Source: Planctomycetota bacterium (lineage in GTDB: Bacteria; Planctomycetota; Planctomycetia; Pirellulales; UBA1268). From it: a stretch of DNA of 48,395 nt. Location of the stretch: assembly GCA_003671185.1 (NCBI GenBank), contig QWPN01000110.1, positions 1 to 48,395 of the forward strand, given 5' to 3'. Below, in pieces: positions 1 through 30,108 of the stretch (its first letter is position 1; every line of letters starts with the position of its first letter). The notes under the pieces were generated by a model that was not told the origin of the DNA, made no database searches, and was given only the letters and a program-made list of their open reading frames with translations. The translations under genes and the position numbers were made by a program.

Positions 1-222
1 AGTGCAGCACACCCGCCGACTGCGTCGCCGGACGCGACGCCCTCGAGAGCGACCGGAGGGTCGCCAAGCAAAAATCGCCAGGATGGCGATGTTTTGCGTG
101 CCACGGCTTTGCGATCCGCCACAGTGCAGCACACCCGCCGACTGCGTCGCCGGACGCGACGCCCTCGAGAGCGACCGGAGGGTCGCCAAGCAAAAATCGC
201 CAGGATGGCGATGTTTTGCGTG
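1..222. repeat. Tandem repeat array A, period 122 bp (copy 1 at 1-122, partial copy 2 at 123-222), truncated by the window edge; three hairpins per unit
   Basis: 'agtgcagcacacccgccgactgcgtcgccggacgcgacgc...caaaaatcgccaggatggcgatgttttgcgtg' occurs at 1 and again at 123; ends 3 bp from the corA stop codon (226-228). Confidence 0.97.
68..97 (-). terminator. Terminator-like hairpin in array A copy 1 (second copy at 190-219)
   Basis: + strand GCAAAA-ATCGCCA-[GGA]-TGGCGAT-g-TTTTGC; on the minus strand a 7-bp stem followed by a T-run just after the corA stop. Confidence 0.6.
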
Positions 223-225
223 TAC

Positions 226-1362
226 TCAGTGCCAGCGCTTCAGCCAGCCGCGGCGCCAGAACAGTGCCACCATGCCGATCGTGGTCGCCGCCATCATGCC
301 CAGGGCCACCAGCGAGCCGTAGGGGAAGTTGAGCAGCGGCATGTTCCAGGGTGACGCCGTGTTGAAATTCATGCCGTAGTAGCCGGTGATGAACGTCAGC
401 GGCATGAAGATCGTGGCGATCACCGCCAGCACCTTCATCACGTCGTTCATGCGGTTGTTGAGGCTGGCCAGGTAGATGTCGCGCAGGTCGCTGCCGATCT
501 CCCGGTAGCCCTCGGTGAGATCGAGCAGTTCCATGGTGTGGTCATAGGAGTCGCGAAAGTGCTGGCGGGCGTGGTCGCCTACGAAGGCCGTCGACTCGCG
601 GCCGAGGGCGTGGAGCACGTCGCGAGTGGGCCACAGCGCCCGGCGCAGCGTCATCAGGTCGTTGCGGACGTCGTGAATCTGCCGGAGTAGTCCGCGGGAA
701 GGGTTGTCGAGGGCCTCCTCCTCGATCGTCTCCAGTCGATCGCCGAACCGCTCCAGCACGGGGAAATAGCCGTCGATGACAGAGTCGAGGAGCAGGGCGC
801 AGAGGTGGTCGGCCCCCAGGTGCCCGAGCCTCGTGCGGCCGTGACGGATGCGGTCCCGCACGCCCCCGAAGCCGTCGGGGACGGTGCGGTCGTGGAAGGT
901 GATCACGTAGCGGTCGCCAAGAAAGATCGCCATCGGGTCGGTGGAGATCGCTTCGCCGTCGAAGCGGGCCATGCGCACCGCGATCAGCACCTGGTGGCCG
1001 AAGACCTCCACCTTGGGCCGCTCGTCGGGGGTGATCGCGTCCTCGAGAGCGAGCTCTCCGATCTGGAACACCTCGCCGATCATGCGGATCGTGGCCAGAT
1101 CCTCGAAACCGCTGACGTCGAGCCAGATCACCGGCCACTTTTCCCGGGCGATCGTCAGTTCCTCGGGCCGCATCACGTCGGTCTCGTGCGTGGTCGTGCC
1201 ATCGCAGGCGATCATGCGCAGGTCGGTGGGATGGCCGCTGTGGACGACGGCCTCGGCGATGGCGTCGTCGAGGTGGCGGTGCGGCTCTCTGCGGCGGCGC
1301 CGGCGGCGGTGCTTGCGGGATGACACGGTGAATCGCTCCGGGAGGTGTGTCCCGACGGCCAC
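226..1362 (-). CDS. corA: CorA-family divalent cation transporter
   Basis: C-terminal 'TFITGYYGMNF' GMN motif between two TM segments; exact N-terminus uncertain (Arg/His-rich start). Confidence 0.9.
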   Translation of the reverse strand: MAVGTHLPERFTVSSRKHRRRRRRREPHRHLDDAIAEAVVHSGHPTDLRMIACDGTTTHETDVMRPEELTIAREKWPVIWLDVSGFEDLATIRMIGEVFQIGELALEDAITPDERPKVEVFGHQVLIAVRMARFDGEAISTDPMAIFLGDRYVITFHDRTVPDGFGGVRDRIRHGRTRLGHLGADHLCALLLDSVIDGYFPVLERFGDRLETIEEEALDNPSRGLLRQIHDVRNDLMTLRRALWPTRDVLHALGRESTAFVGDHARQHFRDSYDHTMELLDLTEGYREIGSDLRDIYLASLNNRMNDVMKVLAVIATIFMPLTFITGYYGMNFNTASPWNMPLLNFPYGSLVALGMMAATTIGMVALFWRRGWLKRWH

Positions 1363-1455
1363 GATAGCCGCCCCGCGGCCTGCCGGTCGACCCTCGGGCG
1401 GGTGCAGCCCGCCGATTCACAGGCACCGGCCGCGGTGCCGGGGTATCCTCAGCCC

Positions 1456-1680
1456 ATGGTCCGCGACTCCGGCGTTTCCCCGATCGGCGAAGCCATGGTG
1501 TGGGTGTCCCGCATCATGGCGATTGGAATGACCATGTTCCTGCCCGGCTTGGCGGGCAATTGGCTGGACGCCCGGTTGGGGACCTCGTTTCTCGGGCTGC
1601 TGGGGATCGCGGCCGGGCTGGGAGTGGCGTTCCTTTGGCTGACGCAACTCAAAGGGGCTGCGGGGCGCTCGAAGCGATGA
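1456..1680 (+). CDS. AtpZ/AtpI-like small membrane protein
   Basis: 74-aa two-TM protein immediately upstream of the atp cluster; ATGA overlap with next ORF. Confidence 0.65.
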   Translation: MVRDSGVSPIGEAMVWVSRIMAIGMTMFLPGLAGNWLDARLGTSFLGLLGIAAGLGVAFLWLTQLKGAAGRSKR

Positions 1681-2105
1681 GCCGTGGTCCGCACCCCATC
1701 CCGGCCTCCACGTCCGCCGGGGTTGTCCTGCAACTGACGGCCCTGGCCGTGGCCGCGGGCATCGCGCTGGCGTTTGCAGGCGATCGACCGCATCGCGGCG
1801 CCGCGGTCGCGTTCGCGGCGGGTGTCTGTTGTACGGCGGTCGGGGGGGCGTGGATCGCCGCCCGACGGCCGGGGGGGACGCCGGCGGCCCGCACCGTGGC
1901 TGCGTTGGGTGTGGTCTGCCTGAGGGTTTTTCCGGCCCTCGCAGCACTCGGATGGCTGCAGTCGAGGGGGGGCACGCTGCGCGACGCCGGCGCCGGGGAA
2001 TTGCTGGTGATTTTTTACCTCGTCGTGCTTGCCGTGGACCTGATCCTGAACATCATGGGGAGCGGCGGAGGCCCAGCGAACCCGGGTTCGACAACGGCGA
2101 ATTGA
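1677..2105 (+). CDS. Small membrane protein, possible ATP synthase I-type subunit
   Basis: 142-aa multi-TM ORF between the AtpZ-like ORF and atpB; start overlaps upstream stop (ATGA). Confidence 0.55.
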   Translation: MSRGPHPIPASTSAGVVLQLTALAVAAGIALAFAGDRPHRGAAVAFAAGVCCTAVGGAWIAARRPGGTPAARTVAALGVVCLRVFPALAALGWLQSRGGTLRDAGAGELLVIFYLVVLAVDLILNIMGSGGGPANPGSTTAN

Positions 2106-2196
2106 CGCCGCCGGGCCGCATGAAGCAAACTCTCGACGCCGGTCGAGGATTCATCGCCGCGCCGTACAGGCAGCCAGCCCAGGAAATCCGGCCCCC

Positions 2197-3291
2197 ATGT
2201 CCGATCACAATCCGATCTACCACCTCAAGGACGCCTATTTCTTCGAGGTGCCGAAGGCGCTCTGGCGACAGAACTGGCAGACGCTCGAGGATGTGCCGGA
2301 GTTCCTTCGCGCGCCGTACGACGGCGACCATCTGCCGATGCCGTCCGTCGCCGAGTTCAACCACGCCATGGACGGCAAGATCCTCATCCCCCAGCCGTTT
2401 GGCTCGCTCGACAGCCTGTACGAGAAGAAGTCGGGTTTCTGCATCTCCAAGTACATGCTGCTGGAGGTGCTGCTCGCCGGCATCCTGATTCTCCTGTTCA
2501 CGCGGGTAGCGAAGCGGTTGCGGAGCGGCGAGGCGCCGCGGGGCGCCTTCTCCAACGTGTTTGAGGCGATGATCCTCTTCGTTCGCGACCAGATTGCGCG
2601 GCCGGCGATCGACAGCCACGACCACGGTCATGACGGCCATGGCGGTGAGGACCACGGCCACGAGGGTCACGCCGCAGCAACTGACGCTGGGCACGGGCAT
2701 GCGGCGCCTGTGCTGGCGGCGGCCGGCGGAGCGACGGTCGCGGTCCACCGCGACGTGCATGACGGCGACCGTTTCGTGCCCCTGCTGCTCTCCCTGTTTT
2801 TCTTCGTGCTGGGCTGCAACCTTCTCGGCATGGTGCCCTGGGCCGGATCTCCCACGGCCTCCTTCTCGGTGACGCTGGCCCTCGCCGGAGTCACCTTTTT
2901 GGCGGTCGTGGTGGCGGGGATGCTGAAGTTTGGCGTGCTGGGCTTCTTCGGCAACCAGGTGCCGTCGATGGACTTGCCGCTGCCGCTGGCGATCCTCCTC
3001 AAGCCGATGATTTTTGCCATCGAGATGCTGGGACTGGGCATCAAGCACCTGATTTTGGCCGTACGACTCCTGGCCAACATGGTGGCCGGGCACCTCGTGC
3101 TGCTCGGCATCATGGGACTGATTTCGGCGGCGGCCAGTTATTCGCTGGGCCTGTGGGCTACGGTGACCGGCATCAGCGTGGTGAGTTGCACCCTGTTCAG
3201 TGTGCTGGAACTGTTCGTGGCGTTCCTCCAGGCCTACATCTTCACGTTCCTGTCGGCCCTGTTCATCGGGGCGGCGGTCCACCAGCACTGA
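2197..3291 (+). CDS. atpB: F1Fo ATP synthase subunit a
   Basis: 'AVRLLANMVAGHLVLLGIMGL' subunit-a signature; followed by atpE. Confidence 0.95.
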   Translation: MSDHNPIYHLKDAYFFEVPKALWRQNWQTLEDVPEFLRAPYDGDHLPMPSVAEFNHAMDGKILIPQPFGSLDSLYEKKSGFCISKYMLLEVLLAGILILLFTRVAKRLRSGEAPRGAFSNVFEAMILFVRDQIARPAIDSHDHGHDGHGGEDHGHEGHAAATDAGHGHAAPVLAAAGGATVAVHRDVHDGDRFVPLLLSLFFFVLGCNLLGMVPWAGSPTASFSVTLALAGVTFLAVVVAGMLKFGVLGFFGNQVPSMDLPLPLAILLKPMIFAIEMLGLGIKHLILAVRLLANMVAGHLVLLGIMGLISAAASYSLGLWATVTGISVVSCTLFSVLELFVAFLQAYIFTFLSALFIGAAVHQH

Positions 3292-3505
3292 GCCCCTCCG
3301 GCGGCGGCCGTCGTCCGCCGCAAAGCCGCTTCTGGAAAACCACCCTTCAAAATCCCGGGAAAATCCCTAGAACATGGCTTCCCGGCTGCTCGACGGCACC
3401 GCTTTCCCGACCCGCACAATCAACCTGTTCGTTTCGAGTCGCCAATTCCCAACCCCATCCGGGCGTCCGTCCGGTCCCTCGTTTCGCAAGGAGCATGATC
3501 CAGTG

Positions 3506-3826
3506 ATGATTCGATCCCTGTTTTCGACCCGTTTGCTCGCCGTCGTCGCCGCCTGCGTGGCAACCGTTCTCTGTGCCGACGTCGCCAGCGCCCAGGAGGC
3601 TGCCGCCTCAGGCCGTGCGCTCATCGACCTGACCTCGGCGTTCAGCGTCGGCCTCGTCGTCATCGGCGCCGCTTATGGCATCAGCAAGCTCGCCTCGGCT
3701 GCCTACGAGGGCATGTCGCGGCAGCCCGAGGTGGCCGGCAGCATCCAGACGGCGATGATCATCGCGGCGGCCCTCATCGAGGGTTTCACCTTCTACGCGT
3801 TGTTCATCTGCTCGCAGAAGGCTTGA
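3506..3826 (+). CDS. atpE: F1Fo ATP synthase subunit c with N-terminal signal-like extension
   Basis: 'GISKLASAAYEGMSRQPE...ALIEGFTFYALFI' hairpin; AAGGAG upstream of ATG. Confidence 0.93.
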   Translation: MIRSLFSTRLLAVVAACVATVLCADVASAQEAAASGRALIDLTSAFSVGLVVIGAAYGISKLASAAYEGMSRQPEVAGSIQTAMIIAAALIEGFTFYALFICSQKA

Positions 3827-3833
3827 TCCCCGC

Positions 3834-3861
3834 CCGGCAGGCCGCCCGTGCGGGTTGCCGG
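3834..3861 (+). other. Stem-loop just downstream of atpE
   Basis: CCGGCA-gg-CCGC-ccgt-GCGG-gt-TGCCGG, starts 8 nt after the atpE stop codon. Confidence 0.6.
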
Positions 3862-4047
3862 CAAGCGTCGTTTCACGAGCCGGGGCAGTGGGAGGATCGG
3901 CTTCCCGCCCCGTTCTCGTGGCACGGCGAGTCGATGTCCTGGACGGTCCGCTGGGCATCAGTGAAGCCCGCGTTCACCGGCCGGTTGGCACTGTTCCCGG
4001 TGTCGGCCAACGAAACCTGACAGCCCAATGAGTATCGGAGCCAACAC

Positions 4048-4749
4048 GTGATCCAGAACGAACGCGTCGCCGCCGACCGCAGTCGCTTCCTGATTGCCGC
4101 CTGTGCCCTGACAGCCTGCCTCGTCTTGGGCGGGGAGACGGGGCTTTCGGCCGGCCGGGCGGTGGCGAGCCCCGCGGCTCATGGCGATGCTCATGCCCCC
4201 GAGATCGGCCACAATCCTCCGGCCGGTGTCAGCCAGAAGGACTTCGAGAGCCCGGCCTGGTTCCAGACGGATCTGGCTGTCTGGTCGTTCGCGGTGTTCC
4301 TCGTGCTCTTCGCGCTGCTCACGAAGTTTGCCTGGAAGCCGATCATGCAGGGGCTCGAAAAGCGCGAGGAGGGCATCGCCCGCCAGATCGCCGAGACCAA
4401 GGCGGCCAACGAGGAGGCCAAGCGCATGTTGGCTTCGTACGAGCGGCGGTTGGCCGAGGCCGCGGAGGAGGTTCGCGGCATGCTGGATGAGGCCCGGCGC
4501 GACGCTGAGGGCACCAAGCAGGCGATCGTGGCCGAGGCCCGCAAGGCTGCCGAGGATGAACGGGTCCGGGCCACGCTCGAAATCCGGCGGGCCAAGGATG
4601 ATGCGCTGTCGCAGATCGCCGAGAAGGCCGGGCATCTCGCGGTCGAGGTGGCCGGCAAGTTCCTGCGTGACAAACTCGGCCAGGACGATCAGGCCCGGTT
4701 GGTTCGCGACTCGGTGTCCAGTCTCTCCAGCCGGCCCAGCGTCAACTGA
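4048..4749 (+). CDS. atpF: F1Fo ATP synthase subunit b
   Basis: N-terminal signal/TM then long charged coiled coil 'FAWKPIMQGLEKREEGIARQIAETKAANEEAK'; GTG start. Confidence 0.92.
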   Translation: MIQNERVAADRSRFLIAACALTACLVLGGETGLSAGRAVASPAAHGDAHAPEIGHNPPAGVSQKDFESPAWFQTDLAVWSFAVFLVLFALLTKFAWKPIMQGLEKREEGIARQIAETKAANEEAKRMLASYERRLAEAAEEVRGMLDEARRDAEGTKQAIVAEARKAAEDERVRATLEIRRAKDDALSQIAEKAGHLAVEVAGKFLRDKLGQDDQARLVRDSVSSLSSRPSVN

Positions 4750-4782
4750 ACCCCAGCGTGCCAGTTCCAGGATGACATCAGC

Positions 4783-5387
4783 ATGACCACCGCGACCAAG
4801 GCCAGCCATGTCGACATCGCCGCCGACCGCGTGGCGAAGATCTACGCGCAGGCCGTCGTCGATGCGGCCGAGGCCGCCGGCTGCCGCCGCGAGGTACTCG
4901 TCGAGCTGGCAACGCTGGCCCGTGACGTGCTGCCCAAGGTGCCCGAGGCCGCGGCCGTGTTCTCGTCGCCGAAGGTGGCCCTGGAAGACAAGAACAGGAT
5001 CATTAAGCGGCTCACGGCGGGACGGATGCAGGCCACGACGACCAACGCGCTGCACGTGCTGGCCCGGCACGGCCGGCTCGGCCTGCTGGGGGCCGTCGTC
5101 GACGCCGCCGAGCGGCTGGCCGACGAACGCGAAGGCCGCCAGCAGGCCACGTTCACCACGGCCGTGCCGCTTGATGCAGCAGAGCAATCCCGGCTTGTGG
5201 ACGACACGCAGAAGGCCCTTGCCGCCGCGCTCGTCCCCACCTTCGTCGTTGATCCCGCGATCATCGGCGGCCTCGTCGTCCGCGTCGGCGACACCATCTA
5301 CGACCAGTCGGTCGCCACGGGCCTGGCCCATCTTGGCGGTCGTCTCCAAGACCGAAACATCCGCGCCATCCAGAACGGGGAGTACAC

Positions 5388-5400
<13 letters not shown>
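4783..5400 (+). CDS. atpH: F1Fo ATP synthase subunit delta
   Basis: '[21 protein letters not shown]' OSCP/delta C-terminal signature; overlaps atpA start. Confidence 0.93.
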
Positions 5401-6935
<1,535 letters not shown>

Positions 6936-6975
6936 GAACCGGGATTCGGCACACACCCGCTGAAAGTCGCACATC

Positions 6976-9430
<2,455 letters not shown>

Positions 9431-9470
9431 GCCCGCCGCCCTCCGCCACCGAATCGAGGAACCCATCGCC

Positions 9471-9899
9471 ATGGCCGATGCCAAGCAGTCCGGAACGGTT
9501 CGCTGTGTCGTCGTGACGCCGGAGAGCACGAGCCTCGACACCCAGGCGCGTTCGGTCACGCTCCCTTTGTATGACGGATTGCGGGGCGTGGGCCGCGGTC
9601 ACTCCCCGTTCATCGGGCGCCTCGGTGCCGGGGAGGTGCGGATCGTGGGCGAGCAGGGCGGGCCGGCGGATGCCGTGCGCCGGCTGTTCGTGGAGGGAGG
9701 TTTCGTGGAGGTGTCGCATGATGCCGTCACCGTGATCACTCAGCGGGCGATCGCCGCCGAGAGAATCGACGCCGCTGCGGCACGGGCCGACCTGGCGAGG
9801 ATCATCGGCACCCGCGCCGCCGGTGACGAGGCGATTGAGGCGAAGGAACAGGCCGCTCAGGTGGCCAGGGCCCTCGTGCGGACCGCAGGCGGCCGTTGA
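9471..9899 (+). CDS. atpC: F1Fo ATP synthase subunit epsilon
   Basis: 'SVTLPLYDGLRGVGRGHSPFIGRLGAGEVRI', position at end of the cluster. Confidence 0.9.
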   Translation: MADAKQSGTVRCVVVTPESTSLDTQARSVTLPLYDGLRGVGRGHSPFIGRLGAGEVRIVGEQGGPADAVRRLFVEGGFVEVSHDAVTVITQRAIAAERIDAAAARADLARIIGTRAAGDEAIEAKEQAAQVARALVRTAGGR

Positions 9900-9948
9900 G
9901 CCTGGCATCTGCCGGAGCCTGTCCGACGACTCCCCTGCCGCGAGCGGC

Positions 9949-10941: not shown

Positions 10942-11022
10942 GGTGACGTCTCCGAGGACGCCTCCAGGGTAGCCGAATACGGAGTCGTCTCGCCATGCGT
11001 GTTGCGGCCGCCGTGGCGGGTG

Positions 11023-11375
11023 GTCCCGCGGCGGACACGAGCAAAAAAGGGCAGGGATGCCTTTTTTGCGCTGCATCGAGCCTGGAGGGCTCGATCCGTC
11101 CGCCCGGGCAACCCTTGGCGTTGTCCCGCGGCGGACACGAGCAAAAAAGGGCAGGGATGCTTTTTTTGCGCTGCATCGAGCCTGGAGGGCTCGATCCGTC
11201 CGCCCGGGCAACCCTTGGCGTTGTCTCGCGGCGGACACGAGCAAAAAAGGGCAGGGATGCTTTTTTTGCGCTGCATCGAGCCTGGAGGGCTCGATCCGTC
11301 CGCCCGGGCAACCCTTGGCGTTGTCCCGCGGCGGACACGAGCAAAAAAGGGCAGGGATGCCTTTTTTGCGCTGCA
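11023..11375. repeat. Tandem repeat array B, period exactly 100 bp, about 3.5 units
   Basis: 'gcaaaaaagggcagggatg' starts at 11041, 11141, 11241 and 11341; units near-identical; ends 1 bp from the cysE stop (11377-11379). Confidence 0.99.
11341..11369 (-). terminator. Terminator-like hairpin of array B closest to cysE (repeated at 11041, 11141 and 11241)
   Basis: + strand GCAAAAAAGGgCA-[GGGA]-TGCCTTTTTTGC; minus strand GGCA-TCCC-TGCC followed by TTTTTT just after the cysE stop. Confidence 0.6.
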
Positions 11376-11376
11376 A

Positions 11377-12378
11377 TCAGATCTGGTAGTCGTTCGACGG
11401 GTCGGGCATTTCGCCGCGCATGCGGAGCTTGGGACGTTCCAGCACCACGGTGGTGTGCGGGTCGATCGAGCGCGTCAGCCAGACGTTGCTGCCGATCACC
11501 GAGTGGTGCCCGATACGCGTGGTTCCGCCCAGCACCGTGGCGTTGGCGTAGATCACCACGCCGTCCTCGATCGTGGGATGGCGTTTCGTGCCACGCACCA
11601 GGTGGCCATCGGCGTCCGTCTGGAAGGAGAGTGCGCCCAGCGTGACGCCCTGGTAGAGCTTCACGTGGCTGCCGATTTCGCACGTCTCGCCGATCACCAC
11701 ACCGGTGCCGTGGTCAATGAAGAAGTGGTCGCCGATCGTGGCACCCGGGTGAATGTCGATGCCGGTGCGCGAGTGGGCCCACTCGGCCATCATGCGCGGG
11801 ATGAGCGGCACTTCGAGTCGGTGCAGCAGATGTGCCAGCCTGTGGATGGTCACCGCCTCCAAGCCGGGGTAGCAGAAGATCACTTCGTCGAGGGTGCGCA
11901 CGGCCGGGTCACCGTCGTAGGCGGCCTGCACGTCGGTGGCGAGCACCCGGCGCAGCTCGGGGATGCGCTCCAGGAACTCCACCGCCTTGGCCTGGCCGAG
12001 CGCCTCGAAGTCACCCTCTTCGCTGCACTGCGACACGGTGTCGGGCACGGCCGGGGCCTCGACGCCCTGCGCCGTGGCGGCCCGCTGTGCCGAGAGACTG
12101 TGCCGCAGGGCGCGGCCGATCTGCGTCGTGAGCTTGTCGTGCAGGCCATCCACGAGGTCACCGACGTGGTAGGTGACGTTGCCGAGGTGCAGATTTTCAC
12201 GGCGCCTGTACCCGGGGTAGAGGATCTCCTTGAGGTCCTCGCAGGCCGAGATGATCGCCTCGTAGTTGGGCAGGGGGCAGTGCCCGAGGTAGTGGATCGT
12301 GGGCACGTCCTGGTACGTGTCGACGATCCGCCGCGTCAGTTCGGGCAACTGCTCTTTGATGCGCACGTCTGTTGACAT
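11377..12378 (-). CDS. cysE: Serine O-acetyltransferase (EpsC/CysE type)
   Basis: Left-handed beta-helix hexapeptide region '[44 protein letters not shown]'. Confidence 0.94.
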
Positions 12379-12577
12379 GGACTTCGATGGTAAAGACGTC
12401 GGGGCGCACCGGCAAACTGCTGCCGAGTACGGTCGGCGGGGAAGCCCCGGGAAATTGAGCGAGTCCCGCGATTCTCCCGGCCCGGGGCGGGCCGGCCGCG
12501 ACTTTCGGGAAGCGGGGCAGAATGGGCGGGAGCAGGCTCGTGCGGTTCATGTCCGGGCGTTCTGCCCGCCGGTTGCG

Positions 12578-13300: not shown

Positions 13301-13327
13301 GACTGTGTTCCTGGATGAGGGTGGCCG

Positions 13328-16108: not shown

Positions 16109-16650
16109 GCGCGAGGCCCCCGAGCCGACGGTGCCGTCGCCAGCCAGTCGAGGATTCGTGCGGCGACGCTGTGTGGCGCATCCGATGCGGCATCGAACAC
16201 CGCGTCGGCGCACTCACGGTACAACGGTTCTCGCGTGTGCAGCGCCTCCTCGATCTCGGCCAGCGGATCCGCACCCGACAGGGCCGGCCGTCTGTCGGCC
16301 GTGGCCGGATCGGCTGCCAGCCGCCAACGCAGGACGTCAGCGGGCGCCTCGAGCCAGGCCACGGGACGGCCCCGGCGGCGCAGCAACTCGCGGTTCTCCG
16401 CGCGCAGCACGACGCCACCGCCCGTGGCCAGCACGCCCGGTTGTTCCAGCAGTTCGCGCAGCACCGCGACCTCCTCGTCCCTGAAGGCCGGTTCGCCCCG
16501 CTCCCGGATGAATGCGGCGATCGTGCCGCCAATCCGCGTCTCGAGCACGGCGTCGGCATCGTGCCACGGGCAGTCGAGGTGCCGCGCCAGGATGCCGGCC
16601 ACGGTCGATTTGCCCGTGCCGCGGTAGCCGATCAGCGTGATCCGTGGCAT
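16105..16650 (-). CDS. aroK: Shikimate kinase
   Basis: 'MPRITLIGYRGTGKSTVAGILARHLDCPWHDADAVLE', 'VLATGGGVVLR'. Confidence 0.93.
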   Translation of the reverse strand: MPRITLIGYRGTGKSTVAGILARHLDCPWHDADAVLETRIGGTIAAFIRERGEPAFRDEEVAVLRELLEQPGVLATGGGVVLRAENRELLRRRGRPVAWLEAPADVLRWRLAADPATADRRPALSGADPLAEIEEALHTREPLYRECADAVFDAASDAPHSVAARILDWLATAPSARGPRA

Positions 16651-16690
16651 GGGAAGGTCGTGGCCTCTGGCCGGCGGCCGTGAACGGGTG

Positions 16691-18193: not shown

Positions 18194-18228
18194 GATGGAA
18201 TCCTGGAGGGCGACGTATGCGATGCGTG

Positions 18229-20007: not shown

Positions 20008-20035
20008 GCGTTTGCACGGCGTGCGGCCCGCGCCG

Positions 20036-21484
20036 TCACGTCAGCTGGTATTCCTTGATCTTGCGGTACAGCGTTCGTTCGCCGATGCCGAGCAGTTCGG
20101 CTGCCTGTTCCCGGTTGCCACCCGTGAGCTTGAGCGTCTCGGTGATAAACAGCCGCTCCACCTCCTCCAACGGCCGGCCCACCAGCGCCGCCAGGCCGGG
20201 CAGTGCTTCGGCTCCGGTCGGCACGGCCTGCGGTGCCGCGGCGGGCTCCAACTCGAGCGGCAGGTCGTCGACGTCCAGCGTCTCGTCACAATCGACCACC
20301 ACCATGCTCTCGACGACGTTGCGCAGCTGGCGCACGTTGCCCGGCCAGCCGTAGGAGCCGAGCCGCATGCGGGCGGCCAGCGACATGCCCTTGATCGTTT
20401 TGCCGTGCCGCTTGGCGAACTGCTTGACGAAGTGCTCGATCAACAGAGGGATGTCGGCCGCCCGCTCCCGCAGGGTGGGAATCGCGATCGTCACCACCTT
20501 GAGCCGGTGGTAGAGGTCGCTGCGGAACGAACCGGCGACGATGGCCTCCTCGAGGTTGCGGTTCGTGGCCGAGAGGATGCGCACGTTGACGCGTAGCGGC
20601 GCGTTCGAACCCACGCGGGTGATCTCTCCCGATTCCAGCACCCGCAGCAGTTTGATCTGCGTCGCCATCGGCATGTCGCCGACCTCGTCGAGAAACAGCG
20701 TCCCGCCGTTGGCGTACTCGAACTTGCCGACGCGGTCGCTGGAGGCGTCCGTGAAGGCCCCTTTGACGTGTCCGAACAGTTCGCTTTCCAGGATGTTCTC
20801 GCTGAGTGCGGCGCAATTGAGCGCCACGAAGGGCTTGTTCTTGCGCGGGCTGTTCTGGTGCACCGCCTGAGCCACCAGCTCCTTGCCCGTGCCGGTCTCG
20901 CCCTGGATCAAAAGGGTGGCGTCCGTGGGAGCGATGCGCTTGAGCCGCTCGATGAGGGCCACCATCTGCGGACTGGAGCCGACGACGCCCTCGAAGCCGA
21001 ACTTCTCGTCTAAGCGGCGGTTCAATTCCAGGTTCTGGCGGCGCAGACGCACGCCGGCCGAGGCCTTCTCCACGGCGGTGCGCAGATGGCCGAGGTCGAG
21101 TGGCTTCTGCAAGTAGGTGAAGGCACCCTGCTGCATGGCGGACACCGCGGAGGGGATCGTGCCGTGGCCGGTGACCACGATCACCTCGGTCTCCGGGGCA
21201 GCCTTCTTGGCCCGGGCCAGGATCTCCAGCCCGCCGATATCGTTCATCATCAGGTCGGTGACGACGACGTCGAACGGCTCCGCCTCGAGCCGGCGGGCGC
21301 CCTCGGCGCCGCCGCCCGCCACGGTCACCAGGCAGCCCAGCCGCCCCAGTCCCTCGCCCATCGTGCGGGCGTGTACGACGTCGTTGTCGACCACCAGGAC
21401 GCGGACGGGATCGGCCGAAACGTCCGCATCGTCGCTCGGTGCGGACGGGTCACCGGATCGGGATGGCACTGAGGGGTTCGCCAT
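20036..21484 (-). CDS. Sigma54-dependent NtrC-family response regulator
   Basis: REC domain, AAA+ '[18 protein letters not shown]', 'GAFTDA', Fis-type C-terminal HTH. Confidence 0.95.
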
Positions 21485-21535
21485 GGTGGGGATGGTACGA
21501 GGCGGTGCGGCGGCACGTCCAGTTGCCGGACGCGG

Positions 21536-22294
21536 TCACGCCGGCTGGCCGTGGCTGGAGGGCGGCAGGCGTGGCGGAGCTGGCAGCCAAATCGTGACTT
21601 TCGTGCCGCGGCCCGGGGCGCTCTCCACGTCGATCGTGCCACCGTGCGCCTCGACGATCTTGCGGGCCGTGGGCAGGCCCAGACCGGAACCACCCTGTTT
21701 GGTCGTGTAGAACGCGCGGAACACCTTGCCGAGCGTTTCCGCGTCCATGCCCGGGCCGGTGTCGATCAGCTCGAGGAGCACTCCCAGGCCGGCGGCACGG
21801 GTGCGCACCACGAGCTGCCCGCCCCCCTCCATCGCCTGCACGGCGTTGATCAGCAGGTTGAGGACGGCCGAGCGGAATGTCTCCCTGTCGAGGCGGACGG
21901 CGGGCAGCTCCGGGTCGAGATAGCGGACGATGTCGACGCCGGCCTCCTGGGCCCGGATCGCGAAGAAATCGAGCAGTTGCTCCACCTCCACGTTGAGGCT
22001 GCCGGGCTCGAGCGTGAGCGACTCCTGGCGGGCGAAGTCGAGAAAATCGCCGAGCAGTTTCTGCAGACGGTCGCATTCCTGCCGGACCAGGTCGATCTTG
22101 GCCTTGGCGCGGCGGTCCCGCTGCTTGGTGGGCGATTCGGGATCGCTGGTCTCGAAGTCCTCGGCCAGCAACTCCATGGTGAGGCGGATGGTGGACAGCG
22201 GGTTGCGGATCTCGTGGGCGAGGCCGCCCACGAGAGCCGCGAACTCCGCATATGTTTCCGCCCGGGAGGTTTCCGGTTCGTCGCCCGCCGACAT
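21536..22294 (-). CDS. Soluble histidine kinase without an obvious sensor domain
   Basis: H-box 'LVGGLAHEIRNPLSTIRLTMELL', 'VLNLLINAVQAM', 'GSGLGLPTARKIVEAHGG'. Confidence 0.93.
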   Translation of the reverse strand: MSAGDEPETSRAETYAEFAALVGGLAHEIRNPLSTIRLTMELLAEDFETSDPESPTKQRDRRAKAKIDLVRQECDRLQKLLGDFLDFARQESLTLEPGSLNVEVEQLLDFFAIRAQEAGVDIVRYLDPELPAVRLDRETFRSAVLNLLINAVQAMEGGGQLVVRTRAAGLGVLLELIDTGPGMDAETLGKVFRAFYTTKQGGSGLGLPTARKIVEAHGGTIDVESAPGRGTKVTIWLPAPPRLPPSSHGQPA

Positions 22295-22327
22295 GGCCGA
22301 TTCCGCCCTCGCCCGCGACCGTGATCG

Positions 22328-24460
22328 TCACTCCGCCGGGGCGCCGCTCCCTGCCTGCTCCCGGAGCACCGCCTTGCGGGAGAGCTTGACCCGGTCCTGA
22401 TCGTCGACGGCGATCACCTTGACCCGCATGATGTCGCCCACACGGCAGATGTCCGTCACGCTCTTCACGAACTCGTCGGACAGTTCGCTGACGTGGCATA
22501 GACCGTCCTTGCCGGGCACCAATTCCACGAAGGCACCGAAGTCCTTGATGCTCGTGACCCGGCCCTCGTAAATACGCCCGATCTGGATCGAGGCGGTGAG
22601 GGCCTCGACCTGGGCCATGGCCGCCATCGCGCCTTCGGCGTCGTGGCTGGCCACGGTGACCGTGCCGTCGTCCTCGACCTCGATGCTGGCACCGGTGGAT
22701 TCCTGGATCGCCCGGATGGTCTTGCCACCAGGACCGATGAGCAGGCCGATCTTCTCGGGGTTGATCCGCGTGCGCAGCAGCCGCGGGGCCCACACGGAAA
22801 TCTCCGGCCGCGGCCGGCGGATCGCCGAGAGCATCGTGCGCAGGATCTCCAGCCGGGCGTCTCGGGACTGCCGCAGCGTGGCCTCGATGATCGCCGGCGA
22901 GATGCCGTCGATCTTGAGGTCGAGCTGGATGCCCGTGATGCCGTTCTGCGAGCCGGCGATCTTGAAGTCCATGTCGCCGTAGTGATCCTCGTCGCCGATG
23001 ATGTCGGTGAGCAGCACCCAACGCTGCTCGGTCTCCTTGACGAGGCCCACCGAGATGCCCGCCACCGGGTGCGAGATCGGCACGCCGGCGGCCATCAGGC
23101 CGAGCGTGGCCCCGCACACCGACGCCATCGAACTCGAGCCGTTCGATTCGAGGATGTCGGAGATCACGCGGATCGTATAGGGAAACACGTCAGGATCCGG
23201 CAGCACCGGCTTCACGCTGCGCTCGGCGAGCGCGCCGTGGCCGAGTTCGCGCCGGCCGGGGCCGCGGATCGGTCGCACTTCGCCCACCGAGAACGACGGG
23301 AAGTAGTAGTCGAGCATGAACTTCTTGGAGTACTCGTCGATCAGGCCGTCGACCCGCTGCTCGTCCTTACCGGTGCCCAGCGTGATCGTGACCAGCGCCT
23401 GCGTCTCGCCGCGCTGGAAGACTGCCGAGCCGTGCACGCGAGGCAGCACGTCGACCTCGCAGTGGATGGACCGCAGGGTCTTGTGGTCGCGGCCATCGGG
23501 CCGCTTGCCCTCCAGGATCAACTCGCGGACCGCACGCTCCTCCAGCCCGTGCCAGACGTGCGCGAAGTCGGCGTCGCTCGTCCCGCCGGCCGCACCCGGC
23601 TTGGGCTGGAAGGCCGGCTCGCTAGGAGCCACCTCCGTCTTCGCCTTCTCCCGCAGCGCCTTCACGGCCTGGCCGCGATCCTGCTTGACGGGCGTGGCCT
23701 TGGCCAGCTTGAGGTCGGCCAGATAGCCGGTGGTGAGCCGTTCACGGAGCGCCGAGTAGTCGGCCAGCACGTACTCCTTCTTGGGCTTACCGGCCTTGCG
23801 GACCAACTCCTCCTGCATCTCGCAGATCGTGCGGATGACGCGGTGGGCCTCGTCGAGGGCCTGCAGCATGCGGTCCTCGGGCATCTCCCGGGCGAAGCCC
23901 TCGATCATGAGCACGGCGGTCGGGCTGCCCGAGACCACCAGATCGAGATCGCTTTCCTCGAGTTGGTCGATCGTGGGGAACGGCACGAAGCGGCCGTCGA
24001 TTTGTGCCAGCCGCACGCTGCCCAGCGGGCCGCGGAAGGGCAGGGGGGAGATGCACAGGGCGGCCGAGGCGCCGATCATGGCCAGCACATCGGGATCGTT
24101 CTGGCGGTCGCTGGCCAGCACGTTGGCCTGCACCTGGACCTCGTCGTAGAAGCCCTCGGGGAAGAGCGGCCGAATCGGGCGGTCCATGAGCCGGCTGGTG
24201 AGCGTCTCCTTGAGCGTGGGGCGTCCCTCACGCTTGAGGAAGCCACCCGGAAACTTGCCCGCCGCCGCCACTCGCTCCCGGTAGTCGCACGTGAGGGGGA
24301 AGAAATCGATGCCGGGGCGGGGCGCTCCCGTGGCCGTGGCCACGAGCACCACCGTCTCCCCGTAGCTTACGAGCACGCTGCCCGCGGCCTGCTTGGCCAG
24401 AAATCCGGTTTCGATCGCCAGTACATGGTCGCCGATCTGTCGTTCAACACGCTGCTTCAC
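22328..24460 (-). CDS. pnp: Polyribonucleotide nucleotidyltransferase
   Basis: Two RNase PH domains, KH 'IGPGGKTIRAIQESTGASIEVEDDG', S1 'YEGRVTSIKDFGAFVEL'. Confidence 0.98.
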   Translation of the reverse strand: MKQRVERQIGDHVLAIETGFLAKQAAGSVLVSYGETVVLVATATGAPRPGIDFFPLTCDYRERVAAAGKFPGGFLKREGRPTLKETLTSRLMDRPIRPLFPEGFYDEVQVQANVLASDRQNDPDVLAMIGASAALCISPLPFRGPLGSVRLAQIDGRFVPFPTIDQLEESDLDLVVSGSPTAVLMIEGFAREMPEDRMLQALDEAHRVIRTICEMQEELVRKAGKPKKEYVLADYSALRERLTTGYLADLKLAKATPVKQDRGQAVKALREKAKTEVAPSEPAFQPKPGAAGGTSDADFAHVWHGLEERAVRELILEGKRPDGRDHKTLRSIHCEVDVLPRVHGSAVFQRGETQALVTITLGTGKDEQRVDGLIDEYSKKFMLDYYFPSFSVGEVRPIRGPGRRELGHGALAERSVKPVLPDPDVFPYTIRVISDILESNGSSSMASVCGATLGLMAAGVPISHPVAGISVGLVKETEQRWVLLTDIIGDEDHYGDMDFKIAGSQNGITGIQLDLKIDGISPAIIEATLRQSRDARLEILRTMLSAIRRPRPEISVWAPRLLRTRINPEKIGLLIGPGGKTIRAIQESTGASIEVEDDGTVTVASHDAEGAMAAMAQVEALTASIQIGRIYEGRVTSIKDFGAFVELVPGKDGLCHVSELSDEFVKSVTDICRVGDIMRVKVIAVDDQDRVKLSRKAVLREQAGSGAPAE

Positions 24461-24671
24461 TACTACTTCCCTTCCTTCCCTTCGCGCCCGCGATCGTGCC
24501 GCGACAACCGTGGTTATCGCCCGGCGGGCATGCCATCCATCTGGAACCGGACGCGACGATGCGCCCGGATGAACCCCACTCCGTTGATCACGACCCTACC
24601 GTACCGGCACGTCCGGGACGGGGGGTGACCAGCAGCAATCAACGCCGTCCGCCGAGAACCCCGAGGGGCTG

Positions 24672-24941
24672 CTACTTGCGGATCTCCAAGCGGCGGATGA
24701 TGTCCAGATAGCGCTGCGGGGTGACCCGCTTCAGATAGTCAAGAAGCCGGCGACGTCGGCTCACCATCATCAGCAGGCCCCGCCGGCTGGCGAAGTCCTT
24801 GCTGTGCTTCTTGAAATGGTCCGTCAGATGCGAGATGCGCCCAGTGAGGAGGGCGATCTGGACTTCGGCGGACCCGGTGTCGGCGGTTCCGCGCCGATGG
24901 GCACCGATCAGTTCTTTTTTGCGTTCTTTCGTGAGCGACAT
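24672..24941 (-). CDS. rpsO: 30S ribosomal protein S15
   Basis: 89 aa 'TGSAEVQIALLTGRISHLTDHFKKHSKDFASRRGLLMMVSRRRRLLDYL'. Confidence 0.98.
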   Translation of the reverse strand: MSLTKERKKELIGAHRRGTADTGSAEVQIALLTGRISHLTDHFKKHSKDFASRRGLLMMVSRRRRLLDYLKRVTPQRYLDIIRRLEIRK

Positions 24942-25086
24942 CACCGACATCCACCCGCCACGGGTGGCATTGATTGTTGGGAGCGAAGTTCGTTGAACGG
25001 CAGTGTATCGGCACCGCCGCAAATTGCAACAGGCCCGTATTTCTTGCGTGCGCCACGCCGCAGGCACCGGCCGTCGTGATCGCGGG

Positions 25087-26136
25087 TCATGTTCGCCGCA
25101 CGGCGGCGGCACCGCGCTTCCTGCCCGTGCCCTGTGGCGTATGCACCACGTCCCAGGCAAGCCCCAACCGTTCCATCGCCAGGATCACCCAGTATGTGGA
25201 GTCAAATTCCCACCACCGATGCCCGTGGGCGGCCATGCGCTGGTAGGCGTGGTGGTTGTTGTGCCAGCCTTCGCCAAAGGCCAGCAGGCCGACCCACCAC
25301 AGGTTACGCGAATCATCCGTGGTCTCGTAGTTGCGATAGCCCCACATGTGGGTCGCCGAGTTCACGAACCAGGTGATGTGGAACACGATCACCATGCGGA
25401 CGGCGAGCCCCCACACGAGCCAGGAGATGCCCGTGAAGCGGTCGTACAGCAGCCAGCCGGAGGCGAGCAAGGCGGTGCCGATGAGAAAGTGCCAGAGCAG
25501 GAACGTGACGTGCAGGAAACGGACGCCGGCGTCGCGTTCCAGGTCCGGGGCCCAGCGCCGGGTGTGGGCGGCGACTTCCTCGGCCGTGTGCCGCGGAAAC
25601 AGCCAGAGCATGTGGGACCACAGGCCGCCATCGCGGGGAGAATGCGGGTCGCCGTCCTGGTCGCTGAAGGCGTGGTGCTTGCGATGATTGGCCACCCACA
25701 CGAGCGCGGAACCCTCGCCGGAAATGCCACCCAGGAAGGCGAACAGGAAACGCACGGGCGCCGACGTGACGAAACTGCCGTGCGTGAGCAGACGGTGGTA
25801 TCCCAGGCACACGCCCAGGCCGCCCGTGATCCAGTACAGCACCATGCAGATGGCGAGGCCCGACCAGGTGAAGAAAAACGGCGCCGCCAGTGCCGCCAGA
25901 TGGACTCCGCCGATCCAGATGAAGACCGCCCAGTCCAGATCGCCCCAACGTTCGCGGCCGCCCTCGCGCCGTGGCTCATGACGGTCGGCGGCCGCCTCGC
26001 CGCCGCCGGACGAGGCCGCTGCCGACAGCGGGTCGTACACCGCGGACCGGCCGAAATCGTCGCCAGCCTCGAGCACCATCGCGGTGGACGAGGCGGTGTC
26101 GTCGGGCTCGGAGGACGTGTCGCGCGGTGGTGTCAT
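25087..26136 (-). CDS. Acyl-CoA/fatty acid desaturase
   Basis: His boxes 'HRLLTHGSF', 'HRKHH', 'HNNHH'; four hydrophobic segments. Confidence 0.93.
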   Translation of the reverse strand: MTPPRDTSSEPDDTASSTAMVLEAGDDFGRSAVYDPLSAAASSGGGEAAADRHEPRREGGRERWGDLDWAVFIWIGGVHLAALAAPFFFTWSGLAICMVLYWITGGLGVCLGYHRLLTHGSFVTSAPVRFLFAFLGGISGEGSALVWVANHRKHHAFSDQDGDPHSPRDGGLWSHMLWLFPRHTAEEVAAHTRRWAPDLERDAGVRFLHVTFLLWHFLIGTALLASGWLLYDRFTGISWLVWGLAVRMVIVFHITWFVNSATHMWGYRNYETTDDSRNLWWVGLLAFGEGWHNNHHAYQRMAAHGHRWWEFDSTYWVILAMERLGLAWDVVHTPQGTGRKRGAAAVRRT

Positions 26137-26272
26137 ATGACGGCCCGTGCCTTTCGCTGGAAGGATGAAGATGCGTCGTGTCCAAAACGACACGTTACCA
26201 CTCTGACGGCAGAGCGGTGATTCCGACAGCGCCGCGGCGTCAGGTTTTGGTCCGACCCGGGTCAAAAATCTG

Positions 26273-27574
26273 TCAAAATGCCCCGCCGCCGCTCGTTGGA
26301 GGGGGGTTCGACGCCCGTTGCCCGTCGCCTGCCGGCGGCGGGACGCCGTCTGGCAACACCGACATCAGCCAGGCACCGGGGCCGGATGCCGGCACGTAGG
26401 CGGTGTCTGGAGCCGCCAACATCCAGGCCAATCGCTCGAACGGCACGACCGTGGTGGGTGCGTCGAGCAACGGTCTGCCCTCCGCTACCACCATCCCCTC
26501 GCGCAGTCCGCCGGCCGGCAGGATCCGGGCCCCGTTCGGGCCGAATCGCAGCACGCATGCCATGGCATCGATCGCCCGCTCCGATCGCGTCGCGGGGGGC
26601 GACGATCGCGGTTGGCAACCCAGGGCCATGCCGATCCTGTCGAGCAGTCGGCCGTCGATCCAGCCTGGGCCGGCCGACCACCCGATCGCGCCGCCGCAGA
26701 GCCGGCCCTGCTGCCACGTCACGTCGTTCAGGTCGACCGTCGCCGTGCCCGCCGCTCGCGATCCCAGAGCCGCCGCGCAGGCGGCCACATCGATCTCGGC
26801 GATGCGGCCCGCGACCGTTCCGCCCCAGGAACCAGCGTCGCGCGTAACCCGCAAGGTGCCGGACGCCAGCGCCGTCGGGCCCAGGGAACTGCCGGCCGTG
26901 GTCCCTCCACCCACCAGGGCGACGACGATCCCCCAAGGGATCGGGTCGGTGCACGAGGCTTCGACCTCGACGCGGTCGATCGCCGCCCCCGTGGCATCGC
27001 GTGACCAGGTGCGCACGATGCGGACCTCGTCGCCGGCGGCAGCGTGGCGTACGACGCGGATCGCCCGCGAACCGGCTTGCGCGACGCACTCCACGCGCAG
27101 CGGCGTCGCCGGCCCAGTGGCCGCAACCGACGCGGCAGACGCATCCCACTGAAAGTCGGCCACCTCGACGACACAACTGCGGGGGAAACGCGCCTCGCCC
27201 TGCAGCCAATCGCGGGCCAAGGCCGCCAGTAGCCTCGCCGCGTGCTCGTCGCAGCGGAGTCGATCGATCAGCAGCCGATCCTCGGTGGCCGCCGACTCGG
27301 CCTCGACGCGCGGGAGGTCGAGCACGCGCTGGCCGGCCGCATCGAGGAGGGTGCAGCGGTCGGCGCGGACGGCGCCGGGCCGCAGATGGGCCACCGCACC
27401 CACCTCCAGGGCCAGCCCCAGACGCTGTTGCCAGGCCTGCCGCAGCGAGTCACGGTGTGAGGCCGAGCGGATGTGCACCGCCCAGGCCAGCAGGGCGACG
27501 CAGGGCAGGAGCCCGGCCGCCAGGAACGCGACACGCGCGCGGCGGACCCGGGCGGCGGACCGTGCGATGAACAT
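26273..27574 (-). CDS. Hypothetical membrane-anchored protein, possibly AsmA-like
   Basis: 433-aa ORF with single N-terminal TM and long repetitive beta-like exterior; no confident family assignment. Confidence 0.6.
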   Translation of the reverse strand: MFIARSAARVRRARVAFLAAGLLPCVALLAWAVHIRSASHRDSLRQAWQQRLGLALEVGAVAHLRPGAVRADRCTLLDAAGQRVLDLPRVEAESAATEDRLLIDRLRCDEHAARLLAALARDWLQGEARFPRSCVVEVADFQWDASAASVAATGPATPLRVECVAQAGSRAIRVVRHAAAGDEVRIVRTWSRDATGAAIDRVEVEASCTDPIPWGIVVALVGGGTTAGSSLGPTALASGTLRVTRDAGSWGGTVAGRIAEIDVAACAAALGSRAAGTATVDLNDVTWQQGRLCGGAIGWSAGPGWIDGRLLDRIGMALGCQPRSSPPATRSERAIDAMACVLRFGPNGARILPAGGLREGMVVAEGRPLLDAPTTVVPFERLAWMLAAPDTAYVPASGPGAWLMSVLPDGVPPPAGDGQRASNPPPTSGGGAF

Positions 27575-27604
27575 CCCTGTTCCTCCGCGTGTGCGGGAAC
27601 TCCG

Positions 27605-28744
27605 TCAGCGGTCGCGTGCCATGTCGTGATACAGCTTCCAGCGGCCGCGCATCTCTTCGACGCTGTCGGCGCCGAACTTGTCCACCAGCGCGGCCGCCAC
27701 CTCGAAGGCCACCACGCTCTCGACGATCACGCTGGCCGCGCTGACGGCGCAGACGTCGCTGCGCTCGTAGGCGGCTTCCTCTGGCTGCTTGGTCCGCAGG
27801 TTCACCGAGTCCAGCGGCTTGCGCAGCGTGCTGATCGGCTTCATCGCGGCCCGCACCACAAGCGGCTGGCCGTTTGTCATTCCCGCCTCCAGCCCGCCGG
27901 CATTGTTCGTGGGGCGGGTGAATCCCAACTGGGGCCCGTCGCGCAGCGCGGGGTCGAAATGGATCGGGTCGTGCACGTCGGAGCCGCGGCGGCGCGCCGC
28001 CTCGAAGCCCATGCCGATCTCCACGCCCTTGATCGCCTGCACGGCCATCACGGCCTGGGCCAGCCGGCCGTCGAGCTTGCGGTCCCACTGCGCGTGCGTG
28101 CCCAGGCCGATCGGCAGGCCGTCGACCCGCACTTCCACGACACCGCCCAGGGTGTCGCCCTCCTTGCCGACGCGGTCGATCAGCGACATCACCTCGGGAT
28201 CCTTGTCGGGATGCAGCGAGTAGATTTCGCTCGAGTCACGAATCGCGCGGAGTTCGGGCAGGGTTCCGGCGCGAGTGCCGAGCACGATGCCGCCGAGTTC
28301 CGTGACCCAGCCGCCGACCTCGATGCCGAACACCGAGAGCAACTGACGGGCCAGGCCTCCGGCCGCGACGCGGGCCGCGGTCTCGCGGGCGCTGGCCCGC
28401 TCCAGCACGGCCCGGACACCGCCCATGTGCTTGATCGAGCCGGGCAGGTCGGCGTGGCCGGGCCGGGGCCGATCGACGTCGTCGAGTTTCTCGAGCTTGG
28501 CGTCCTTGTTGATCACCTCGAGGGCCAGTGGGCTGCCGAGGGTGACGCCGCGCCACAGCCCGGAGAGAAACGCGACGGTGTCGGTTTCGATCCGCTGCCG
28601 GCCGCCGCGGCCATACCCTCCCTGTCGCCGCCGTAACTCAGCGTCGATCGCGGCCACGTCGACTGCCAATCCGGCCGGAAATCCGTCAATCAGGGCCACG
28701 AGCGCGGGGCCGTGCGATTCACCGGCGGTCCAGTAGCGGAGCAT
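27605..28744 (-). CDS. aroC: Chorismate synthase
   Basis: 'MLRYWTAGESHGPALVALIDGFPAGL', 'RPGHADLPG', 'ARETAARVAAGGLAR'. Confidence 0.97.
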   Translation of the reverse strand: MLRYWTAGESHGPALVALIDGFPAGLAVDVAAIDAELRRRQGGYGRGGRQRIETDTVAFLSGLWRGVTLGSPLALEVINKDAKLEKLDDVDRPRPGHADLPGSIKHMGGVRAVLERASARETAARVAAGGLARQLLSVFGIEVGGWVTELGGIVLGTRAGTLPELRAIRDSSEIYSLHPDKDPEVMSLIDRVGKEGDTLGGVVEVRVDGLPIGLGTHAQWDRKLDGRLAQAVMAVQAIKGVEIGMGFEAARRRGSDVHDPIHFDPALRDGPQLGFTRPTNNAGGLEAGMTNGQPLVVRAAMKPISTLRKPLDSVNLRTKQPEEAAYERSDVCAVSAASVIVESVVAFEVAAALVDKFGADSVEEMRGRWKLYHDMARDR

Positions 28745-28898
28745 GGGGGCGGGTCCGTCGGAAGCGGATGAGGGCGGGCGAATGATTCGATTCTAGTTCG
28801 GCCGCCGGGACCACCCTAGAGCGAAACCCCCAGCGAAACCCGGCCCGGATTCGACGCGCGAGCCCCGGCGACCGCCCTGGTGCGGTCTGTCTCGAGCT

Positions 28899-29828
28899 TC
28901 AGGGCGTGTCGTTCGGCAGGCAGCCCGTGATCAGGCGACAGGCTTCCAGGTATTTGTCGCGGGTGCGGTCCACCACATCGGCGGGCAGTGGCGGCGGGGG
29001 GCTCGACTTGTCCCAGCCGCTCGCCTCCAGCCAGTCGCGGACGAACTGCTTGTCGAATGAATCGGGGACGCTGCCGGTGCCGGCGGCCGCGGCCGGCCAG
29101 AATCGTGAACTGTCCGGCGTGAGCACCTCGTCGACGAGCAGCAGTTCACCGGAGGCCGTGCGGCCCCACTCGAACTTCGTGTCGGCGACCACGATGCCGT
29201 GGCCGGCCGCGTGCTCCGTGCCGCGATCGTAGACGTCGACGCTCTTGTCGCGGAGCGTCGCGGCGAGATCGGCGCCGATCCGGGCGGCCATCACGTCGAA
29301 GGACACGTTTTCATCGTGGCCGCTCTCGGCCTTCGTGGCCGGGGTGAAGATCGGTTCCGGCAGCCGGCCGCCGGCGGCGATGCCGGCGGGCAGTGGCACG
29401 CCGCACACGGTGCCAGAGCGTCGGTATTCGGACAGGCCCGAGCCGGCCAGCCAACCGCGGACGACGCACTCGAAGGGGATCACCTCCGCGCGGCGCACGA
29501 GCATCGTGCGGCCACGGAGCGGGGTGAGGTCGATGCCGGCCGGTAGCCCCATCGCGTCGACGTCGGTCGTGAGCAGGTGGTGCGCGACGGGCCGCGCTCC
29601 CCGTGACAGCAGGTCGAACCAGAACCGTGAGATCGCGGTGAGCACCTTGCCCTTGTCGGGGATCGGCGTGGGCAGGATCCAGTCGAAGGCACTGATCCGG
29701 TCGGTGCTCACGATCAGCATCACGTCGCCGAACAATTGCGACTCGAACCGGTAGCAGTCACGTACCTTGCCGCGGAGGGGTGGACCCAGGGGCAGGTCGG
29801 TGTGGACGACGGGGGCGGAGGCGGTCAT
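28899..29828 (-). CDS. purC: SAICAR synthase
   Basis: 'GKVRDCYRF...MLIVSTDRISAFDWILPTPIPDKG', 'LVDEVLTPDSSRFWP'. Confidence 0.96.
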   Translation of the reverse strand: MTASAPVVHTDLPLGPPLRGKVRDCYRFESQLFGDVMLIVSTDRISAFDWILPTPIPDKGKVLTAISRFWFDLLSRGARPVAHHLLTTDVDAMGLPAGIDLTPLRGRTMLVRRAEVIPFECVVRGWLAGSGLSEYRRSGTVCGVPLPAGIAAGGRLPEPIFTPATKAESGHDENVSFDVMAARIGADLAATLRDKSVDVYDRGTEHAAGHGIVVADTKFEWGRTASGELLLVDEVLTPDSSRFWPAAAAGTGSVPDSFDKQFVRDWLEASGWDKSSPPPPLPADVVDRTRDKYLEACRLITGCLPNDTP

Positions 29829-29882
29829 GCGGATGTTCTACGGAGTCGTCTGTCGGCGTCCAAGGGGCTGGCGTGTGGCGCC

Positions 29883-30101
29883 GGCACGAGGCCATGGAGG
29901 GCTCGTGGTTGATGGGGATGCAGGTGAGGAGACCGGCCGCCTGGATGGCGGCCTCACTGCAGCCGGAGGGCTGCCAAGCGGCACGAGGCCATGGAGGGCT
30001 CGTGGTTGATGGGGATGCAGGTGAGGAGACCGGCCGCCTGGATGGCGGCCTCACTGCAGCCGGAGGGCTGCCAAGCGGCACGAGGCCATGGAGGGCTCGT
30101 G
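29883..30101. repeat. Tandem repeat array C, period 97 bp (2 full units plus terminal partial unit); three hairpins per unit
   Basis: 'ggcacgaggccatggagggctcgtg' at 29883, 29980 and 30077; ends 7 bp from the dnaE2 stop (30109-30111). Confidence 0.99.
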
Positions 30102-30108
30102 CCGCGTA

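Follow-up and report, generated by a model that had tools for sequence, protein, structure and literature searches.

The three tandem arrays of the window (the whole 48,395-nt stretch of DNA analysed here, one contig of a 2.75-Mb metagenome-assembled genome, G000, that is 85% complete) are copies of a single ∼105-nt repeat that lies on the minus strand and faces the same way as the upstream gene (Table 1). The repeat is confined to one freshwater family of Pirellulales, starts at gene 3′ ends in a constant orientation, keeps the same anatomy through compensatory changes in its stems and occupies sites common to several species. Its role can be proposed more tentatively: the reading we favour, at slightly less than even confidence and by analogy with known repeats, is a REP-like element that would act at gene 3′ ends as a roadblock behind the stop codon and as a shield of the 3′ end.

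Table 1. Arrays, hairpins and upstream genes of the window.
Feature	Coordinates	Strand	Description
Array A	1..225	−	TRF 1–222, period 122, 100% match; window holds two copies, truncated at the contig end
Array A, first copy		−	Begins at the corA stop codon; R1 matches 186–225 and 64–103
H1 of array A	186..225	−	Stem begins 6 nt past the corA stop
H2 of array A, short	171..186; second copy 49–64	−	GCGACC-CTCC-GGTCGC; from the sequence
H3 of array A	144..162; second copy 22–40	−	GCGTCGC-GTCCG-GCGACGC; from the sequence
Array B	11023..11376	−	TRF 11023–11375, period 100, 98% match; 3.5 copies
Array B, first copy		−	Begins immediately 3′ of the cysE-like stop codon; R3 11266–11376
H1 of array B (B1 of the preliminary description)	11337..11376	−	Loop ATCCCT
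Array C	29882..30111	−	TRF 29882–30101, period 97, 100% match; 2.3 copies
Array C, first copy		−	3-nt overlap with the dnaE2 stop codon; R2 30071–30111, R3 30022–30111
H1 of array C	30071..30111	−	R2 match, 51.9 bits (winC, an R2 seed)
corA, upstream of array A	226..1362	−	PF01544, 3.4e-60
Hexapeptide acyltransferase (cysE-like), upstream of array B	11377..12378	−	PF00132; site common to five relatives
dnaE2-like DNA polymerase III alpha subunit, upstream of array C	30109..33315	−	PF07733, PF17657, PF02811

TRF and the sequence bore out the coordinates, periods and hairpins given for the arrays in a preliminary description of the window, together with their distances of 3, 1 and 7 bp from the stop codons of corA (226), the cysE-like gene (11377) and dnaE2 (30109), respectively. 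Sense-strand folds of the arrays lie well below those of dinucleotide shuffles (z of −7.9 for B, −5.8 for C and −4.2 for A). The cysE-like protein itself is ∼90% identical to proteins from many freshwater Planctomycetes (Pirellulales).

The repeat consists of three hairpins in fixed order, H1, H2 and H3, where H1 carries the loop AUCC[A/C/U]U between the flanks YUUYACG and CUUG, H2 the loop GCC[A/G]AGG and H3 the loop [C/U]UCC. The 130 nt past stop codons accordingly read as the stop, YTTYACG, a stem with loop ATCC[A/C/T]T or ATCCT, CTTGG, and the second and third hairpins. All models run in the same direction as the upstream gene. The pentaloop and hexaloop forms of H1 were modelled separately, as R1 (array A being a seed) and R2, from alignments A2 and A3, because a combined alignment (A1) misaligned the loops. 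Compensation was strong in the stems of both models. Among matches from other genomes, in an alignment that was fitted to the model and nearly all of whose sequences lay outside model building, 97.9% of cells pair, with 59 double-sided changes against 16.4 in shuffles. A full-unit alignment of 17 sites from many genomes (A8), aligned by sequence only, gave a consensus fold of three hairpins with compensatory change in 26 of 35 pairs and a covariation score of 0.519, compared with 0.147 when shuffled and at most 0.108 when slid.

A full-unit model built from A8 without any window sequence (R3) recognized array B at 69.4 bits (11266–11376) and 60.4 bits (11066–11175) and array C at 50.3 bits (30022–30111) and 31.6 bits (29925–30010). 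Its matches to array A were weak (13.0 and 12.5 bits; E of 0.007 in 1.5 kb, filters off), and here a short second hairpin replaces the GCC[A/G]AGG hairpin; because of this difference we assign array A to the repeat mainly on its H1 and the shared flanks. The arrays had been described as not obviously related in sequence, which the R3 matches contradict, and as a family defined by architecture and not by primary sequence. A structured family it is; however, loops and unpaired flanks are kept in sequence and variation is confined to the stems, where it proceeds through compensation. Likewise the hairpin B3, previously singled out as an exception, is the conserved second hairpin, whose GCC[A/G]AGG-type loop recurs 37 times in 57 arrays. 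Pairing of the CUUG tail of H1 with the H2 loop in a pseudoknot is possible by eye, showed no clear covariation and is not claimed. In several arrays (L292, L323 and L343 among them) the 5′ arm of H1 is present in the first copy alone and later copies start at the loop or 3′ arm, so that what is repeated in tandem falls short of the complete element.

Structure-aware models found 48 copies of H1 in the source genome (E up to 0.1) and 57 in its relative G019 (E up to 0.01). The best 30 matches per genome correspond to 25 and 19 arrays, respectively, in intergenic positions as judged with a simple codon-usage gene caller that was checked on the window with Pfam. A sense stop codon lies no more than 5 nt from the start of the first copy in 20 of the 25 arrays of the source genome and 17 of 19 in G019, and 33 of the 44 start at 0 or +1 relative to it. 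Because its seeds came from post-stop sites, R2 might favour such leaders, but the model contains no stop codon and the whole-genome matches were not picked by position. Orientation and post-stop placement, both proposed for the window, thus extend genome-wide (37/44 arrays, far above chance). In most arrays the stem begins 3–8 nt behind the stop codon, and the next called gene is always at least 120 nt away. Other gene ends are used in the same way: one array of the source genome starts 1–3 nt past the tmRNA gene, and in other genomes the 3′ ends of tRNA-Ala, tRNA-Met and tRNA-Val have elements starting at −1 to +2 nt. Among the remaining source-genome arrays, one adjoins the 5′ end of an opposite-strand tRNA-Val (L307), one is cut by a contig edge, its remaining 33 nt holding a stop codon (L297), and two have no gene-end explanation (L299 and L320). 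In the latter locus (L047/L320, ∼311–515) the tandem repeat seemingly includes the 3′ part of a tRNA-Arg gene, recalling the RtT repeats of E. coli.

Genes that carry the element end unusually. An NWC codon precedes the stop in 55 of 71, compared with 12.6% of 970 genes, and TTC does so in 34%, compared with 2.6% of genes. This upstream motif alone cannot explain the placement, since only 24 of 122 WWCTRR sites open to intergenic DNA in the source genome, and 36 of 276 in G019, are stop codons.

The loops, too, are strand-specific. Genome-wide statistics, covering 0.6 Mb of the source genome and 0.8 Mb of G019, showed that, of 32 trimer classes, GGA/TCC has the strongest excess in intergenic hairpin loops of the source genome (609 kb), with 36 unique hairpins against 9.2 in shuffles, and a share of 22% of intergenic loops against 6.6% in coding hairpins. 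In G019 the excess was smaller (46 versus 20.2) and GGA was not the top class; in stretches from other families GGA/TCC was absent from the top loop list. The excess is therefore real and lineage-bound. The preliminary description had stressed GGA apical loops, which are indeed present on the plus strand and above background; the sense strand, however, reads UCC. In the hairpins behind H1, which had no role in building R1 or R2, sense loops across 57 arrays comprise 48 UCC, 2 GGA and 37 of the GCC[A/G]AGG type, compared with 186 UCC and 190 GGA in random intergenic windows, so that the GGA loops are the complement of a conserved UCC feature. Counting loops by flanking-gene class alone gave no clear strand bias, because other hairpins are mixed in; the bias appears once arrays are defined.

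R2 matches occur in all 22 genus members searched (4–82 copies per genome) and in 33 of the family's 37 genomes, the source genome included; the four family genomes without a match are G023, G026, G031 and G034. There were none in 23 genomes from other families of the order and none in 293 further genomes across the Planctomycetes phylum, searched with stricter filters. The conservation in relatives that the preliminary description had made a test of its proposal is thus found, and it extends to individual sites. A cysE-like stop codon is directly followed by the element in six species (the window and L066, L069, L086, L087 and L088), these five relatives' sites accounting for five of seven matches in 714 kb, and sites behind a P-II gene, a Rieske gene and others are also common to several species. 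By matching coordinates between searches, one gene (L306) was seen to carry the element in at least G018, G009, G019, G020 and the source genome, with L283 in another genus, and a second (L308) in G005, G017, G019 and the source genome, with L266 in another genus. Orthologous sites carry differing stems in different species. Within a genome, in contrast, copies are more alike than those of other genomes (0.845 versus 0.764 over 115 nt, and 0.801 versus 0.745 for G019, with matched sampling), which makes partial homogenization or recent spread likely. One ortholog set illustrates gain or loss at a site: the source-genome gene ends in -VEF and TTCTGA, followed by an element array and another repeat, while 17 genus relatives are without the element, most of these empty-site orthologs ending in -W and continuing straight to the promoter-like TATAMT of the next gene. 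We infer that the element spreads, partly homogenized within each genome, as a non-autonomous palindromic (REP-like) repeat.

The driver of this spread does not appear to be a RAYT. Some other genomes hold one to a few RAYT/Y1_Tnp genes, but there was no match in G000, G006, G012, G013 or G018, where incomplete genomes may hide one; the absence from copy-rich genomes (G012, G013 and G018, 93–97% complete, with 57, 27 and 21 copies) speaks against this candidate.

A selected RNA stem normally tolerates G-U pairs, for which a DNA palindrome has no use. In the element G-U makes up 0.7% of standard pairs, compared with 7.0% in 30 tRNAs of the same loci (p of 4e-9), and one-sided stem changes are rare. 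Both features are more readily expected of a DNA palindrome than of an RNA under selection, and they count against the RNA part of the proposal; the scarcity of G-U is the main reason why we rate an RNA function at slightly below even, at best. Both readings can nevertheless be combined in a DNA-hairpin repeat that is transcribed once it lies behind a stop codon. That the element is instead a new kind of mobile or homogenizing DNA hairpin, homing with precision to gene 3′ termini (stop codon, tRNA or tmRNA) through a non-RAYT enzyme and keeping its palindromes perfect at the DNA level, strikes us as a rather doubtful but serious proposition.

Comparison with known systems placed the repeat closest to REP/BIME sequences. 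Rfam release 15 gave no match above the gathering cut-off in the window and only tRNA and tmRNA in the relatives' loci, a permissive scan of array A returned a DUF3577 RNA at 18.3 bits (cut-off 42.6) and nothing else, and in the literature we found no paper describing this three-hairpin family. Like REPs, the repeat comprises short, stable, clustered palindromes that are extragenic, dispersed in high copy number and often at gene 3′ ends. The GTAG- and CGTC-tagged REP super-families are defined by their tags and transposase, and tagged REPs have been reported from Planctomycetes (PMC3733652). Here, however, there are three different hairpins in a ∼105-nt unit, no unpaired GTAG or CGTC at the stem foot (the A8 flanks being YTTYACG and CTTG), almost no G-U pairs and no RAYT in several copy-rich genomes; for want of tags and transposase we set the repeat apart from the described super-families despite its REP-like habit. 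A distance of 15 nt or less from a stop codon is seen for only ∼11% of REPs in E. coli (PMC12306157), whereas this element starts 0–1 nt from it. RtT repeats, tandem repeats of ∼100–200 bp that start from the tRNA 3′ end behind E. coli tyrT, share the tandem layout, the size range and the tRNA boundary but occupy a single locus, whereas the element is found at many, mostly behind protein genes. Integron attC sites are single-strand-folded palindromes just past stop codons whose structure is conserved more than their sequence; the element resembles them in fold and position but is dispersed behind housekeeping genes, with no cassette array.

In the mechanism we favour, a non-autonomous REP-like palindrome would spread, begin at a gene's 3′ end and face the same way as the gene, so that the transcript would carry a very stable stem 3–8 nt behind the stop codon. 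Such a stem may shield the 3′ end from exonucleases and get in the way of ribosomes at termination; in E. coli, REPs situated less than 16 nt past a stop codon have the latter effect and lower translation (PMC12306157). By this analogy, hindered termination and 3′-end protection would be the best-supported function, although ribosome hindrance cannot account for everything, because tRNA and tmRNA sites have no stop codon. Among the functions suggested in the preliminary description, mRNA stabilization and a mobile palindromic repeat both stay plausible. Bacterial repeats are normally loosely placed in 3′ intergenic DNA, whereas this one starts at the last base of mRNA, tRNA and tmRNA genes, and the same genes carry it in different species while its stems are rewritten. 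This raises testable questions of how a repeat recognizes gene ends and whether a post-stop hairpin can serve as a genome-wide regulatory device.

In an unlikely alternative, the element would be a purely selfish single-strand hairpin, brought to gene 3′ ends by a recombinase or transposase and of no benefit to the host. The almost purely Watson–Crick stems, strand-specific loops, NWC motif, filled and empty orthologous sites, copy-number range and within-genome similarity all agree with it, but it has no candidate enzyme, Y1_Tnp/RAYT being missing from the source genome, G012, G013 and G018, stop codons are favoured far beyond the motif, and the same genes keep the element in several species despite differing stems. 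Transcription termination would explain the sense orientation, the 3′ position (also behind tRNA and tmRNA genes), the strong stems, the distance to the next gene and the A/T-rich lower stems of some H1 copies (A and B). Yet a U-tract follows H1 in none of 57 arrays, contrary to the multi-hairpin termination suggested earlier if this is of the U-tract type. Terminators of the U-tract-less tandem (‘I-shaped’) kind are what this explanation calls for, and we consider them quite improbable, given that only ∼1–2% of genes carry the element (estimated from copy number) and that neither conserved loops nor a 0–1-nt spacing is needed for termination.

Two further proposals turn on the loops, and both are considerably weaker. 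Pairing of UCC with the GGA of ribosome-binding sites, in cis or in trans, would make the element an anti-Shine–Dalgarno 3′ untranslated region; most copies retain UCC in both H1 and H3, but only three to six loop bases would be available and the H2 loop differs, leaving this very improbable. Least credible of all is a sponge that titrates CsrA/RsmA with GGA-loop hairpins. Multi-hairpin arrays with GGA loops on one strand do recall CsrB/RsmZ-type RNAs, the plus-strand GGA sometimes lies in CARGGAUG-like hairpins, and the source genome encodes three CsrA paralogues (PF02599; L159, L160 and L161, on contigs C121 and C93). The element is, however, tied to the sense strand of its upstream gene, at whose stop most arrays begin, its GGA is antisense to that gene, and it is not a free sRNA gene. 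To act as a sponge, it would have to be transcribed antisense, starting from its far end, and of this there was no sign. We reject the sponge on strand, which equally opposes a GGA-binding (CsrA-type) version of the protein-binding array suggested earlier.

The arrays may also explain assembly breaks in these genomes. Window positions 1–222, contigs C96, C40, C15 and C153 and other contig ends fall inside such arrays, and contig C96 ends in the same repeat as array A, itself at a contig end, from which we infer that assembly breaks there. Array copy numbers have probably been collapsed in the assembly, given these contig ends.

A second repeat of ∼170–200 bp was seen at L065, L107, L064 and L184 (10419–11263) and downstream of the L293/L358 element. 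It has outer arms GGGGCTGCCCGTGCC...GGCACGGGCAGCCCC and a CCGGACGTTCGC motif, and its inner hairpins likewise have TCC/GGA loops. At L067 this second repeat appears to be inserted in the H1 stem beside the cysE-like stop.
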